From NCBI GenBank assembly GCA_021775955.1, contig JAJFGU010000004.1:248001-312000 (forward strand): a stretch of 64,000 bases of DNA, written 5' to 3'. Origin of the DNA: Alphaproteobacteria bacterium (GTDB lineage: Bacteria > Pseudomonadota > Alphaproteobacteria > Micavibrionales > Micavibrionaceae). Below, piece after piece: positions 14,841 to 18,871 of this stretch (the first letter of the stretch is position 1; each line of letters opens with the position of its first letter). Under the pieces are notes generated by a model. That model was not told the DNA's origin and did not search any database. It saw only the letters and a program-made list of their open reading frames with translations. Both the position numbers and the translations under genes were made by a program.

Positions 14841-16787
14841 ATGACCTCTGCGCAAGCCACCACCGAATCAAAAGCCAATACAAACCCTGATCTTGATCTT
14901 AAACAAATGGCCAATGCCATAAGGGCCCTGGCGATGGATGCGGTGCAGGCCGCCAATTCCGGCCATCCCGGCATGCCGATGGGTATGGCCGATGTTGCCA
15001 CAGTGCTGTATACGAAGTTTTTGAAATTCGATCCGAAAAACCCCGAATGGCCGGACCGCGATAGATTTGTGCTTTCCGCAGGCCACGGCTCAATGCTGCT
15101 TTACGCGCTGAATTACCTCACGGGCTACGAGAAAATAACGCTCGATCAGATTAAGAATTTCCGTCAATTGGGTTACATCACTGCTGGCCACCCGGAAGTA
15201 GAGCTGGATGCAGGGATTGAAACCACCACCGGCCCGCTGGGCCAGGGTATTTCCACGGCTGTCGGTATGGCGCTGGCCGAGCGCGTTCTAAATGCCCGCC
15301 ACGGCGATAGCGTTAATCACTTCACCTATGTGATTGCCAGCGACGGCGACATGATGGAAGGCATCTCCCACGAAGCCTGCTCCCTTGCCGGGCATTTGAA
15401 CCTGCACAAGATGATTGTGCTCTATGACGATAACGGCATTTGTATTGACGGCTCGACGGATACATCTTTCAGCGACGATACGCCGAAGCGTTTTGAATCC
15501 TATGGCTGGGATGTGCAGACAATCGACGGTCACAATTTTGATGAGATCGAATCCGCGATTGCAAAAGCCCAAACCACAGACACCCCCAGCCTCATCTGCT
15601 GCAAAACTAAAATCGGCTTTGGCGCACCGACCAAGGAAAATTCTGCCGCCTCTCATGGGGCCCCGTTGGGCGAAGAGGAAATCGCAGGGGCGCGCAAAAA
15701 TCTCGGCTGGCCGCATGGCCCGTTTGAGGTTCCTGACGATATTCTTGCCCAGTGGCGCACAACCGGGCAGCAAGGCTCTTCCGACAATGCACCCGATGAC
15801 GATATCTCCAAGACCATCGCGCCGATCATAGCGCAGCTCAAAAAAGACTTCGCCTCCGAAAAACCGAAAATGGCCACGCGCCAGACCTCCGGCAAGGTGT
15901 TGGAAAGCCTCCTCCCTGCCGTAAAGAAAATGATTGGCGGCAGCGCCGACCTCACCGGTTCCAACAACACTATCGTCAAGGAATGTGGCATTCTCTCCAA
16001 AGACAATTATGACGCCCAATACATTCATTACGGCGTACGCGAGCACGGCATGGCCGCATGCATGAACGGCATGGCGCTGCATGGCGGCATCATTCCCTAT
16101 TCCGGTACGTTTTTGCAATTTGCCGATTACTCGCGCCCGGCCATTCGTCTTGGCGCATTAATGAAGCAACGCGTCATCCACGTCATGACGCATGACTCGA
16201 TTGGCCTGGGCGAAGATGGCCCAACCCATCAACCGGTTGAACATTTAGCCGCTTTGCGTGCGATCCCGAATTTGAATGTCTTCCGTCCTTGTGATGGGAT
16301 CGAAACTGCCGAGTGCTGGGAACTGGCGTTAAACGCAGCTGAAACCCCGAGCGTTATGGCCCTCACCCGTCAGGGCCTGCCAACATTGCGCGAAGATTCA
16401 AAAGAAAACCTATCCGCGCGTGGCGCTTATATCCTGAAAGATTCCGACGGTGATCCTGAAGTCACTCTCTTTGCCTCCGGCTCCGAAGTTTCAATTGCTG
16501 TTGAAGCAGCAGAGCAACTGGACACCAATACGCGCATTATATCTGTGCCCTGCATGGATCTGTTCTGGGAGCAGGACGGTGAATACATCCAAAGCCTGCT
16601 ATGCAATAAATCAGTGAAAGTCGGAATTGAAGCCGCCGTGCGCCAGAGCTGGGACCGCATCATCGGCGGGCATTCACCCTTTATCGGTATGGATGGTTTC
16701 GGTGCAAGCGCGCCCGCCAGCGATCTCTACAAACATTTTGGCATCACTGCCGAAGCTGTGGTTGAGGCTGTTAAGAAGAAACTCTAG
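14841..16787 (+). CDS. tkt: transketolase
   Basis: Transketolase transfers two-carbon ketol units in the pentose phosphate pathway using thiamine diphosphate. The start at 14841 ('MTSAQATTESKANTNPDLDL') excludes residues that would be encoded by the upstream palindrome; AAGGGA lies about 12 nt upstream. Recognisable are 'NSGHPGMPMGMADVATVLY', the ThDP region 'ASDGDMMEGISHEACSLAGH', 'GHNFDEIESAI' and the transketolase motif 'THDSIGLGEDGPTHQPVEHL'. Product is 648 residues, normal for the family. Its stop overlaps the convergent FTR1 stop by two bases. Confidence 0.97.
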   Translation: MTSAQATTESKANTNPDLDLKQMANAIRALAMDAVQAANSGHPGMPMGMADVATVLYTKFLKFDPKNPEWPDRDRFVLSAGHGSMLLYALNYLTGYEKITLDQIKNFRQLGYITAGHPEVELDAGIETTTGPLGQGISTAVGMALAERVLNARHGDSVNHFTYVIASDGDMMEGISHEACSLAGHLNLHKMIVLYDDNGICIDGSTDTSFSDDTPKRFESYGWDVQTIDGHNFDEIESAIAKAQTTDTPSLICCKTKIGFGAPTKENSAASHGAPLGEEEIAGARKNLGWPHGPFEVPDDILAQWRTTGQQGSSDNAPDDDISKTIAPIIAQLKKDFASEKPKMATRQTSGKVLESLLPAVKKMIGGSADLTGSNNTIVKECGILSKDNYDAQYIHYGVREHGMAACMNGMALHGGIIPYSGTFLQFADYSRPAIRLGALMKQRVIHVMTHDSIGLGEDGPTHQPVEHLAALRAIPNLNVFRPCDGIETAECWELALNAAETPSVMALTRQGLPTLREDSKENLSARGAYILKDSDGDPEVTLFASGSEVSIAVEAAEQLDTNTRIISVPCMDLFWEQDGEYIQSLLCNKSVKVGIEAAVRQSWDRIIGGHSPFIGMDGFGASAPASDLYKHFGITAEAVVEAVKKKL

Positions 16788-18328
16788 AAATACCACTCGT
16801 ACTCTAAAATCGCTTTTAACGTCGCATCCGGCGCAGCGTCAGATATCCCGAACAACACCCCTACATCATAGCCGATATGTCCGATATGCCCATACGCCAC
16901 GGGGCCGACCATATGTTTTTGCTCGTCATAAGACTCGCCATCGCTGATTGAACCAAAACTGCTATGCAGCTCCACGCCCGGCTCAAACTTTTCGCTATGG
17001 CGATATTTGCTACTCCAGGCAAAACCGGCTTCGGTATCATCACTGGCATCATCGCCGAATTCACGCTCAAGAACAAAGTTTGCAGCATGTGACGTCTTGT
17101 CGACATCCTTGGCCAACAGCAACTTCACCTCGCCCTTATCCGCTCCGCCGGAGGTGCTGTAGACAAGCTCGGTCAACACACCGACATCGGCCCAGTATTC
17201 CCCCGGGTTGGTCAGCATAAACTTGTTTTCCCACTCAATGCCATCCAGTTCGACATCAGATCCACTTTCACCGCTTTTTTCAAATTCCAGATAAAATTCG
17301 GTAAACCAGTGTTCCGTCACACCATAACCAATAGCTCCCTTTTGAACCCATTTGCCATCAACATCATTGTTATCGTCAATCTCGTAGCGACCCTTCCACT
17401 CCACTTCTAATTCGCCCTTTTCAACATAAGGGGTGTAAACCTGCTTGGTTGCCTGCGCCTGACCCGGCATCATCACGAACGCCGCCAGAATGATTGCCGC
17501 CGTGCCGGCTGCTTTTGTTGTATTGATGTTTTTTTGATCAGATAGCCTCATAAGCATTATTAAAGTCCCTAAAGTTAGAAGATAAACAATAAGCTGGATC
17601 GCGGTCGGCCTTGCGGTGTAACCCACAAGCGTACCGAGGCTTTGCCCAATAATACCGCCCTCTTCCAGCAACCATGAACTGTCCCACACAGTGTGTGACA
17701 ATCCCTCAAACGCGCCCGCCGCCACAAGGAAACCTGTACCCTGCAACATCATCCCGGCCACCAACAACACCAGCAACCAACTCGTGACAATAAAGAACCA
17801 GCGGATTGAAAGCTTAATCAGACCGAAATACAACGCTCCACCAACAGCCGCGCCACCGACAAGTCCAATCGCTGCGCCCCCCATGAGCTCTGCCCAGGAC
17901 ATACCAGATGCGAGCATCCCATAGGAAAACAGCACAATCTCAGAGCCCTCGCGCAACATCGCCAGGCCGATCACCATGGATAAAGAGAAATACGGAAGAT
18001 TGCCCTGCGCAACCTGCTGGCCGATATTCATGAAATGCTGCTTCATTTCGCGGGCATGGCGCTTCATCCATAAAACCGTCCAGCCGATAAACCCGGCAGC
18101 CACAAATAAAATCCCGGCATTGAAATATTCCTGCCCCATCCCTTCGGCGAAATCTGAAATGCTGCCCGTAAACAGAGCCACCAGAGCCGATCCAACCAGA
18201 CCGCCGCCAAAACCAAGCCCAATGGCTTTGCCACGCCCCGGAATGCCCCGCGTTGCCGCCAGCACAATGCCGACGATCAGCACGATCTCAAACACCTCAC
18301 GGAACACAACGATAGCGCTGGATAGCAT
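16784..18328 (-). CDS. FTR1-family iron permease fused to outer-membrane-barrel-like C-terminal domain
   Basis: The start at 18328 has a perfect AGGAG 7 nt upstream; the product is 514 residues. Residues 1-262 form a complete FTR1/EfeU-type seven-helix iron permease with REVFE (10-14) and REGSE (126-130) Fe-binding motifs. Directly after the last helix comes 'MRLSDQKNINTTKAAG', then a hydrophobic stretch ending GQAQA (about 293), which looks like a complete signal peptide with an Ala-x-Ala site. Residues 294-514 are rich in alternating beta-strand patterns and end 'EYEWYF', the C-terminal aromatic typical of outer-membrane barrels. Internal ATGs at 17557 (AGGGA 8 nt upstream) and 17551 could start the barrel separately. 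It is paired with a cupredoxin gene under a Fur-like box, arguing for iron uptake. Confidence 0.88.
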   Translation of the reverse strand: MLSSAIVVFREVFEIVLIVGIVLAATRGIPGRGKAIGLGFGGGLVGSALVALFTGSISDFAEGMGQEYFNAGILFVAAGFIGWTVLWMKRHAREMKQHFMNIGQQVAQGNLPYFSLSMVIGLAMLREGSEIVLFSYGMLASGMSWAELMGGAAIGLVGGAAVGGALYFGLIKLSIRWFFIVTSWLLVLLVAGMMLQGTGFLVAAGAFEGLSHTVWDSSWLLEEGGIIGQSLGTLVGYTARPTAIQLIVYLLTLGTLIMLMRLSDQKNINTTKAAGTAAIILAAFVMMPGQAQATKQVYTPYVEKGELEVEWKGRYEIDDNNDVDGKWVQKGAIGYGVTEHWFTEFYLEFEKSGESGSDVELDGIEWENKFMLTNPGEYWADVGVLTELVYSTSGGADKGEVKLLLAKDVDKTSHAANFVLEREFGDDASDDTEAGFAWSSKYRHSEKFEPGVELHSSFGSISDGESYDEQKHMVGPVAYGHIGHIGYDVGVLFGISDAAPDATLKAILEYEWYF

Positions 18329-18360: not shown

Positions 18361-18693
18361 TTACTTAGCTATAACTTTACCTTGAGCGGTGGCCATATTG
18401 AACTCACCGAAAAATGGGTATTCACCCGGCTTGAGCGGCCCGATGAAAACGATCCCTTTACCACCACCACGAATAATTTTCTCCCGGTTCAATTCATAGC
18501 TCTCAAATTCTTCCGGTGTTTTGTCTTCATTCATTACGATCAGCTTGACCTTTTCACCAGCCGGGACTTCAATCGTTTCGGGAATAAACTTGTGATCTTT
18601 AATGCGAATAGTGAATTCTTCGGTCGCCTGAGCTGGCGCTGCAATCAACACAAAACCAAGAGCCAATACAGACAATAATTTAAGAGATTTCAT
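18361..18693 (-). CDS. periplasmic cupredoxin-domain protein of the iron-uptake pair
   Basis: This 110-residue protein begins 'MKSLKLLSVLALGFVLIAAP' with a cleavable signal ending 'APAQA'; AAGGAAA precedes the ATG. The mature part is a small cupredoxin-like fold: 'FTIRIKDHKFIPETIEVPAGEK', 'LIVMNEDKTPEEFES' and 'GIVFIGPLKPGEYPFFGEFN'. Similar domains occur in EfeO and FtrB, where they deliver or oxidise iron for FTR1 permeases. The canonical type-1 Cys ligand is not evident, so copper-dependent ferroxidase activity is uncertain. It lies 32 bp upstream of the permease gene on the same strand. Confidence 0.85.
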   Translation of the reverse strand: MKSLKLLSVLALGFVLIAAPAQATEEFTIRIKDHKFIPETIEVPAGEKVKLIVMNEDKTPEEFESYELNREKIIRGGGKGIVFIGPLKPGEYPFFGEFNMATAQGKVIAK

Positions 18694-18735
18694 TTTCTTA
18701 TTTCCTTTTGTAAGTGATAACCATTCGCAATTAAT

Positions 18736-18748
18736 AATGATTATCATT
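18736..18748 (-). promoter_or_regulatory. Fur-like operator upstream of the cupredoxin-FTR1 operon
   Basis: AATGATTATCATT is a perfect 6-1-6 palindrome matching the core of the Fur box and lies about 45 bp upstream of the cupredoxin start. Iron-responsive repression by Fur or a relative is inferred. Confidence 0.75.
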
Positions 18749-18871
18749 TACACCTGATTCGTCGGCTTCGTCAACAGGCAAACCAGACAAAATCCAAAAA
18801 ATCTTGATTCATCAGCCCCCCTCCTTTATTTAACTACCCAACGCCACACAACCAGCAATACAGGAGTAACA

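Follow-up and report, generated by a model that had tools for sequence, protein, structure and literature searches.

A gene in which an FTR1 iron permease, an internal signal peptide and a predicted 12-strand outer-membrane barrel share one reading frame lies at positions 16784-18328, on the minus strand, of a 64,000-nucleotide stretch (hereafter the window) of an Alphaproteobacteria bacterium (assembly GCA_021775955.1, contig JAJFGU010000004.1, positions 248,001 to 312,000). It comprises 514 codons plus a stop, is stop-free throughout, and is located directly downstream of a secreted cupredoxin gene headed by a Fur box. The reading favoured here, with a probability of roughly 0.8, is that the product is a polyprotein cut by signal peptidase I, that a second translation start at codon 258 is probably used in the window's family (f1, which we take to be Micavibrionaceae), and that both genes form an iron-repressed unit. 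Computation supports the fusion, the barrel fold, the conserved cut site, the topology, the Fur box and the start-like features. The cleavage itself and the use of the internal start are what we infer.

In the proposed mechanism, the seven helices of FTR1 would enter the inner membrane so that the C-terminal end of this part faces the cytoplasm, and the next 30-odd residues would serve as an internal signal peptide directing the barrel into the Sec pathway. A cut by signal peptidase I after Ala293 would free the permease, which stays in the inner membrane, and the mature barrel would be placed in the outer membrane by the β-barrel assembly machinery (BAM). In Micavibrionaceae, initiation within helix 7, at codon 258 (17557), would produce additional barrel with a complete signal peptide, so that barrel could exceed permease. 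The two-gene iron-repressed unit would consist of an outer-membrane channel, a periplasmic copper protein and an inner-membrane permease. We lean slightly towards a broader statement, in which this is a recurrent architecture of Pseudomonadota, with one frame coding for importer parts of both membranes that are split by signal peptidase I, and with a nested start setting the barrel surplus in Micavibrionaceae.

Permease, signal peptide and barrel in one frame

The FTR1 domain occupies residues 1-261 (17546-18328; this and all other features of the operon lie on the minus strand). In a Pfam profile search it matches PF03239 over residues 1-272 with 105.6 bits (cut-off 25.3), and it has seven predicted helices with a positive-inside pattern. 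It contains REVFE (residues 10-14) and REGSE (residues 126-130), the two REXXE-type motifs of FTR1 permeases, whose residues R10, E11, E14, R126, E127 and E130 are invariant in eight aligned fusions. The window protein scores 114.8 bits with the EfeU equivalog NF041756, below its 255-bit cut-off.

The C-terminal part, which ends in EYEWYF, was modelled with AlphaFold2 from an alignment of 13 sequences (the window's and those of 12 named loci). The model of residues 294-514 (16787-17449) has 12 strands, a mean predicted local distance difference test (pLDDT) score of 91.5 and a predicted template modelling (pTM) score of 0.85, and it is confidently predicted to be a closed 12-strand barrel near solved outer-membrane channels. 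Its top solved match is FapF (Z 22.1, root-mean-square deviation (rmsd) 2.6 over 213 residues, 12% identity); a COG4313 channel (Z 21.5, rmsd 2.7, 216 residues, 10% identity) and PcoB (Z 12.7) are also among the structural matches. FapF and the COG4313 (Phenol_MetA_deg-like) channels have a fold similar to that of the window barrel, for which no significant sequence match was obtained: the COG4313/Phenol_MetA_deg (PF13557) profile does not match it, and matches two of 14 members of the barrel family (best E 1.6e-4). In Pfam, no family was above its cut-off for the rest of the protein beyond FTR1, OMP_b-brl staying at E 0.029 (15 versus 28.7 bits); this last profile matches 4/14 family members (best E 6.2e-6), and CopB matches one of the 14 weakly (E 0.0055). 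A sequence search of the PDB gave no credible match for the barrel, a PHROGs search gave none, and a viral fold library returned general barrels only. The window barrel ends in Phe, and the C-terminal residue is F or Y in 25 of the 28 fusions collected in this work, one of which (L109) ends at a contig end; an aromatic residue at this position is a BAM signal.

Between these two domains are a Lys/Arg-rich cytoplasmic linker, or signal-peptide n-region (residues ~262-273, 17510-17545), and the h- and c-regions of the predicted signal peptide (residues ~274-293, 17450-17509), a hydrophobic stretch that ends in GQAQA at residue 293. In the 28-row alignment of the fusions, position -1 of the predicted cut site (column 293) is Ala in every row and position -3 (column 291) is Ala in 26, Ser in one and Thr in one, with a free residue between them, while in the other columns from 256 to 292 no single residue exceeds 19 rows. 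Mean pairwise identity among the fusions is 20% in linker plus signal peptide, compared to 48% in FTR1 and 44% in the barrel. Small residues at -3 and -1 are the signature of signal peptidase I (the -3,-1 rule). All 28 fusions thus appear to carry, behind a membrane protein and in one frame with it, an internal signal peptide with small residues at these positions, and signal peptidase I is predicted to cleave between residues 293 and 294. The stand-alone barrels among the relatives likewise have signal-peptide-like N-termini, and 28/29 of them carry small-x-Ala close to where the mature part begins.

The earlier note, which was made from the window's letters alone, had described this same arrangement: a complete seven-helix FTR1 with both motifs, followed in frame by a signal-peptide-like segment ending GQAQA and by about 220 residues with a beta-strand pattern like that of outer-membrane proteins. 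The present results agree with it in all three parts, and the search for homologues found both stand-alone barrels and the same fusion in related genomes.

The topology is supported by the distribution of charges. Averaged over the 28 fusions, the inside loops contain 2.4, 4.8 and 2.1 Lys plus Arg residues and the outside loops 0.1, 0 and 0.6, and there are 3.5 in the linker (residues 261-272); this pattern would place the linker in the cytoplasm, as an n-region needs. According to PMC11817551, yeast Ftr1 has been mapped as N-out, C-in. As there is no stop between FTR1 and barrel, each ribosome that finishes FTR1 also makes the fused precursor, and ordinary translation yields no permease without barrel; cleavage would then be the way to free the permease.

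The linker also contains a run of A at 17529-17535, in frame A AAA AAC, and A6-A8 runs are found in the linker of six of the eight fusions from the window's family. A AAA AAC has the shape known from slippery sites; frameshifting or slippage at this A7 run was considered and not adopted; no tidy stop follows in the other frames. Synonymous divergence (dS) in the linker, which is only 31 codons long, is below that of its neighbours in several pairs.

A candidate second start at codon 258

Two internal ATGs are found at the end of the FTR1 part, at 17557 (codon 258) and at 17551 (codon 260, 17549-17551, the weaker candidate), and AGGGA ends 8 nt before the first of them (17555-17570 from AGGGA to ATG), as had been pointed out earlier. 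ATG 17557 lies in a little-folded stretch, within the 60 bases of the gene that are richest in A+T (28% G+C), and is surrounded by rare Leu/Ile codons (5 of 20 codons, 0.32 expected), a count reached by 11 of the 15,720 overlapping 20-codon stretches in the open reading frames (ORFs) of the window. This rare-codon cluster (codons 243-262) is strong (3-5 of 20) in six of the eight family fusions and weak in L052 (1) and L007 (2). The calculated anti-Shine-Dalgarno binding at 17557 is -5.5 kcal/mol, the means being -5.2 for 51 presumed real starts and -2.1 for 362 internal ATGs (those in frame within window ORFs of at least 150 amino acids), and its folding energy is -2.8, with -8.7 for the presumed real starts, taken as the best-scoring start in the first 40 codons of each ORF, which flatters them, and -14.0 for the internal ATGs. 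Among the 362, 37 bind as well and three are as open, and a single one, 17557 itself, does both.

The same score was compared along each gene, here and in the control that follows omitting the gene's own start (first 12-15 codons). In none of the eight family fusions does another stretch reach as good a score (fraction 0.00 to two decimals), whereas in the 20 fusions of other families this fraction ranges from 0.10 to 0.98 and is never 0.02 or less. With a narrower stretch, values of 0.02 or less are found in 8/8 family fusions versus 2/18 unfused FTR1 genes of the family (Fisher 2.9e-5, on related rows), in 2/20 of the other fusions and in 6/27 of the other unfused genes; four of these six (L083, L111, L015 and L016) adjoin a barrel gene. 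Use of ATG 17557 as a second start in the window's family is, judging from these sequence features, fairly probable. In fusions of other families the internal start has no support, and it would be at most a local addition.

The distinction of 17557 among the 362 internal ATGs and the presence of the signal in 8/8 family fusions would also suit a different arrangement, in which all working barrel is owed to initiation at codon 258, with the fused precursor as a degraded or useless by-product. We regard this as quite unlikely, because nothing ends FTR1 before the barrel, so that all FTR1 is made fused, because the signal is absent from the 20 fusions of other families, and because three of 17 fusions (L072, L074 and L096) offer GTG but no ATG in the scanned stretch from helix 7 to the signal peptide. 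Cleavage after residue ~293 and internal initiation had been presented in the earlier note as alternatives; each of the two routes finds backing here, in the cut site of all 28 fusions and the start-like features of the eight family ones, and what falls is the choice between them.

Relatives, operon and the weight of the evidence

With the whole protein as query, the fusion was found full-length and stop-free in 12/142 genomes of the order, in 6/385 of a class sample and in 13/398 of a phylum sample (own genome included in each count; in one genome of the last sample, G753, it ends at a contig end), the class and phylum samples being tool-drawn and incomplete. The 28 distinct fused ORFs, which include L096 from named contigs, were collected beside 45 FTR1-only and 29 barrel-only ORFs; the collected loci are the better-scoring matches and no complete census. 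The window's genus is represented among the fused loci by the Micavibrio bins L089 (DHS20C02) and L090 (UBA5703), on which the family name used here is based. One partial locus at a contig end, L114 (G721), is unfused in the ORF, rare-codon and start-control counts and fused in the FTR1-tree and Fur counts. G805, which spans the query, has a stop at the junction and was left uncounted as unfused, and the long frames of L113 and L118 are N-terminal extensions that end at helix 7, so these were not taken as fusions. Stand-alone relatives of the barrel were also observed in an Omnitrophota bin (L095, 52% identical) and a Planctomycetales bin (L099, 41%), through either horizontal transfer or mis-binning.

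Since the relatives include fused as well as unfused forms, the junction might be suspected to result from an error of assembly or sequencing, or the gene to be decaying. The probability of this is negligible: the 28 fused ORFs are distinct, if in part related, and the ratio of nonsynonymous to synonymous divergence (dN/dS) within the genus is 0.04-0.09 for FTR1 and barrel (10 of 12 comparisons computable).

In the FTR1 tree, fused and unfused genes interleave, with 10 changes, at least six of them forced by well-supported branches, and a single ancestral fusion can be discarded, as one fused clade is rejected by the approximately unbiased (AU) test (p 0.0005). The barrel tree contains eight fused/unfused changes, three of them forced by well-supported branches. 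Gains and losses of the fusion are indistinguishable from these counts. Some unfused loci come close to the fused state: in L080 a single ATGA holds, in different frames, the stop of FTR1 and the start of the barrel, in L083 (whose sequence has ambiguous bases) the overlap of the frames is a few codons long, and in L111 a stop stands at the junction. One small insertion or deletion would join frames such as those of L080 and L083 and would keep the barrel's own signal peptide whole, as it is in the fusions. Arrangements of the unfused genes include cupredoxin-FTR1-barrel (L080, L083), cupredoxin-barrel-FTR1 (L014-L016) and FTR1-cupredoxin-barrel (L098). In one genome (G537:C2, loci L116 and L117), two unfused FTR1-barrel pairs with equal scores lie ~20 kb apart.

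The barrel can also be exchanged for another exported domain. In two genomes, G346 (L123:2846-3973) and G238 (L124:3475-4602), the frame of FTR1 continues into a signal peptide and an unrelated cysteine-containing domain of 78 residues, for which no Pfam or NCBIfam match above cut-off was obtained. A relative of this domain (37% identity) stands alone in G195 (L130) with a signal-peptide-like start, and G512, from the same genus, has the barrel fusion.

The operon of the window contains only the fusion and the cupredoxin gene (18361-18693, 110 amino acids, PF13473 E 1.4e-31), which precedes FTR1 in most relatives seen. By eye, the neighbouring genes are those of a transketolase and a glyceraldehyde-3-phosphate dehydrogenase; the transketolase-like gene converges on the fused gene and overlaps it in the stop codons, through a shared CTAG at 16784-16787. 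At the head of the operon, 40-58 bases before the cupredoxin start, the Fur box GTAAATGATAATCATTATT (18733-18751) has three mismatches to the 19-base consensus, with 0.01 such boxes expected by chance in the window; a Fur-boxed cupredoxin gene had been noticed before and is found here as described. The genome has one Fur-family match and one match to TonB-dependent receptors (PF00593), so its other outer-membrane iron routes may be few. In the 66 loci where both genes were readable (7 of 73 FTR1 rows, without a cupredoxin match in the locus, are omitted), a Fur-like box (up to five mismatches, within 150 bases of the cupredoxin start) precedes the cupredoxin in 21/28 fused, 6/8 adjacent-unfused and 2/30 barrel-free operons (Fisher 1e-8), that is, in 27/36 loci with the barrel and 2/30 without it.

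By comparison with the FtrABCD model (PMC11966278), the likely role of this unit is that of an iron-repressed importer, with the barrel as outer-membrane pore, the cupredoxin as copper oxidase or metal carrier and FTR1 as permease. The two-gene iron-uptake unit proposed in the earlier note thus fits the Fur box and the operon; that iron (or copper needed by the cupredoxin) passes through the barrel we infer. The cargo, a question independent of how the protein is processed, could instead be copper for the cupredoxin, or another solute, as might be read from the weak CopB match and the structural match to PcoB mentioned above, and from L049 (G055), where the barrel is accompanied by the cupredoxin and, by eye, a cytochrome-b561-like gene, with no FTR1 in the stretch. 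A cargo other than iron is unlikely in view of the Fur box and the FTR1 partner. A two-component-like pair (by eye) was also seen adjoining the three genes of L049.

Several results weigh against a cleaved polyprotein with a second start in an iron-repressed unit. The structure model of the full-length fused protein was too poor to use (pLDDT 50.8). The conserved cut site is that of a working signal peptide, which initiation at codon 258 alone would need equally. The fusions are related, 11 of the 28 coming from family f194 and 8 from f1. The start signal of L007 is weak in absolute terms; an exact-word Shine-Dalgarno sequence (at least four bases) precedes the internal start in 5/17 fusions, this gene not among them, and in this the word search disagrees with the energy score (binding plus openness); codons 243-262 show no significant synonymous conservation (p 0.055 in the genus, 0.33 in six genes). 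On phylogenetically independent pairs the association of Fur box and barrel is not significant either (six pairs, median p 0.625). Finally, the h-region comes close to helix 7 in hydrophobicity (2.27 versus 2.35), and this property alone would therefore allow it to stay uncut as an eighth helix, tethering the barrel to the permease in a trans-envelope protein. Such a protein is very improbable, given that the small-x-Ala motif is kept in all 28 fusions while other linker columns vary, and that strand 1 (which begins at barrel residue 13 of the model) is separated from the cut site by only about a dozen residues, too few to span the periplasm.

Meaning and comparison with known systems

A cleaved polyprotein, if real, would offer a natural example of a single chain serving inner and outer membrane alike, with release by the ordinary signal peptidase. 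Genes have changed repeatedly between the fused and the split state, and in two genomes a different exported domain takes the place of the barrel; both observations suggest that placing an internal signal peptide after a membrane protein is a general route to polyproteins in bacteria. Such fused genes are labelled plain FTR1 permeases by family searches. Among the literature titles listed as matches, none described an FTR1-outer-membrane-barrel fusion, switching between fused and split forms or a nested start, which is no proof of absence; literature searches gave nothing combining FTR1, outer membrane, fusion protein and cupredoxin, nor Micavibrio and FTR1.

Two FTR1-type systems resemble the window's operon. 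EfeUOB has an iron-regulated FTR1-type permease, according to PMC3577903. Such a permease, under putative iron control in the window, is common to both, whereas in the window no M75 or DyP gene adjoins (by eye) and the protein falls below the EfeU cut-off. FtrABCD of Brucella and Bordetella comprises an FTR1-type permease, FtrC, and a periplasmic cupredoxin, FtrB, according to PMC11966278, whose passages on the system, as far as consulted, name no outer-membrane partner for it; the barrel is a candidate for this role in FTR1-cupredoxin importers. Permease and cupredoxin are shared with the window, which differs in that no FtrA- or FtrD-like gene adjoins (by eye, the rest of the genome being unsearched) and in that an outer-membrane barrel is part of the gene.

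The principle by which one gene joins a membrane protein to an exported protein through an internal signal peptide is already known from fbcH. FbcH of Bradyrhizobium, reportedly from work of Thony-Meyer et al. in 1991, is made from one gene as an inner-membrane protein (cytochrome b), an internal signal peptide and an exported protein (cytochrome c1), and is cut into two. Both products of FbcH are said to stay in an inner-membrane complex, whereas the second product of the window fusion is a predicted outer-membrane barrel, for which a nested start is likely.

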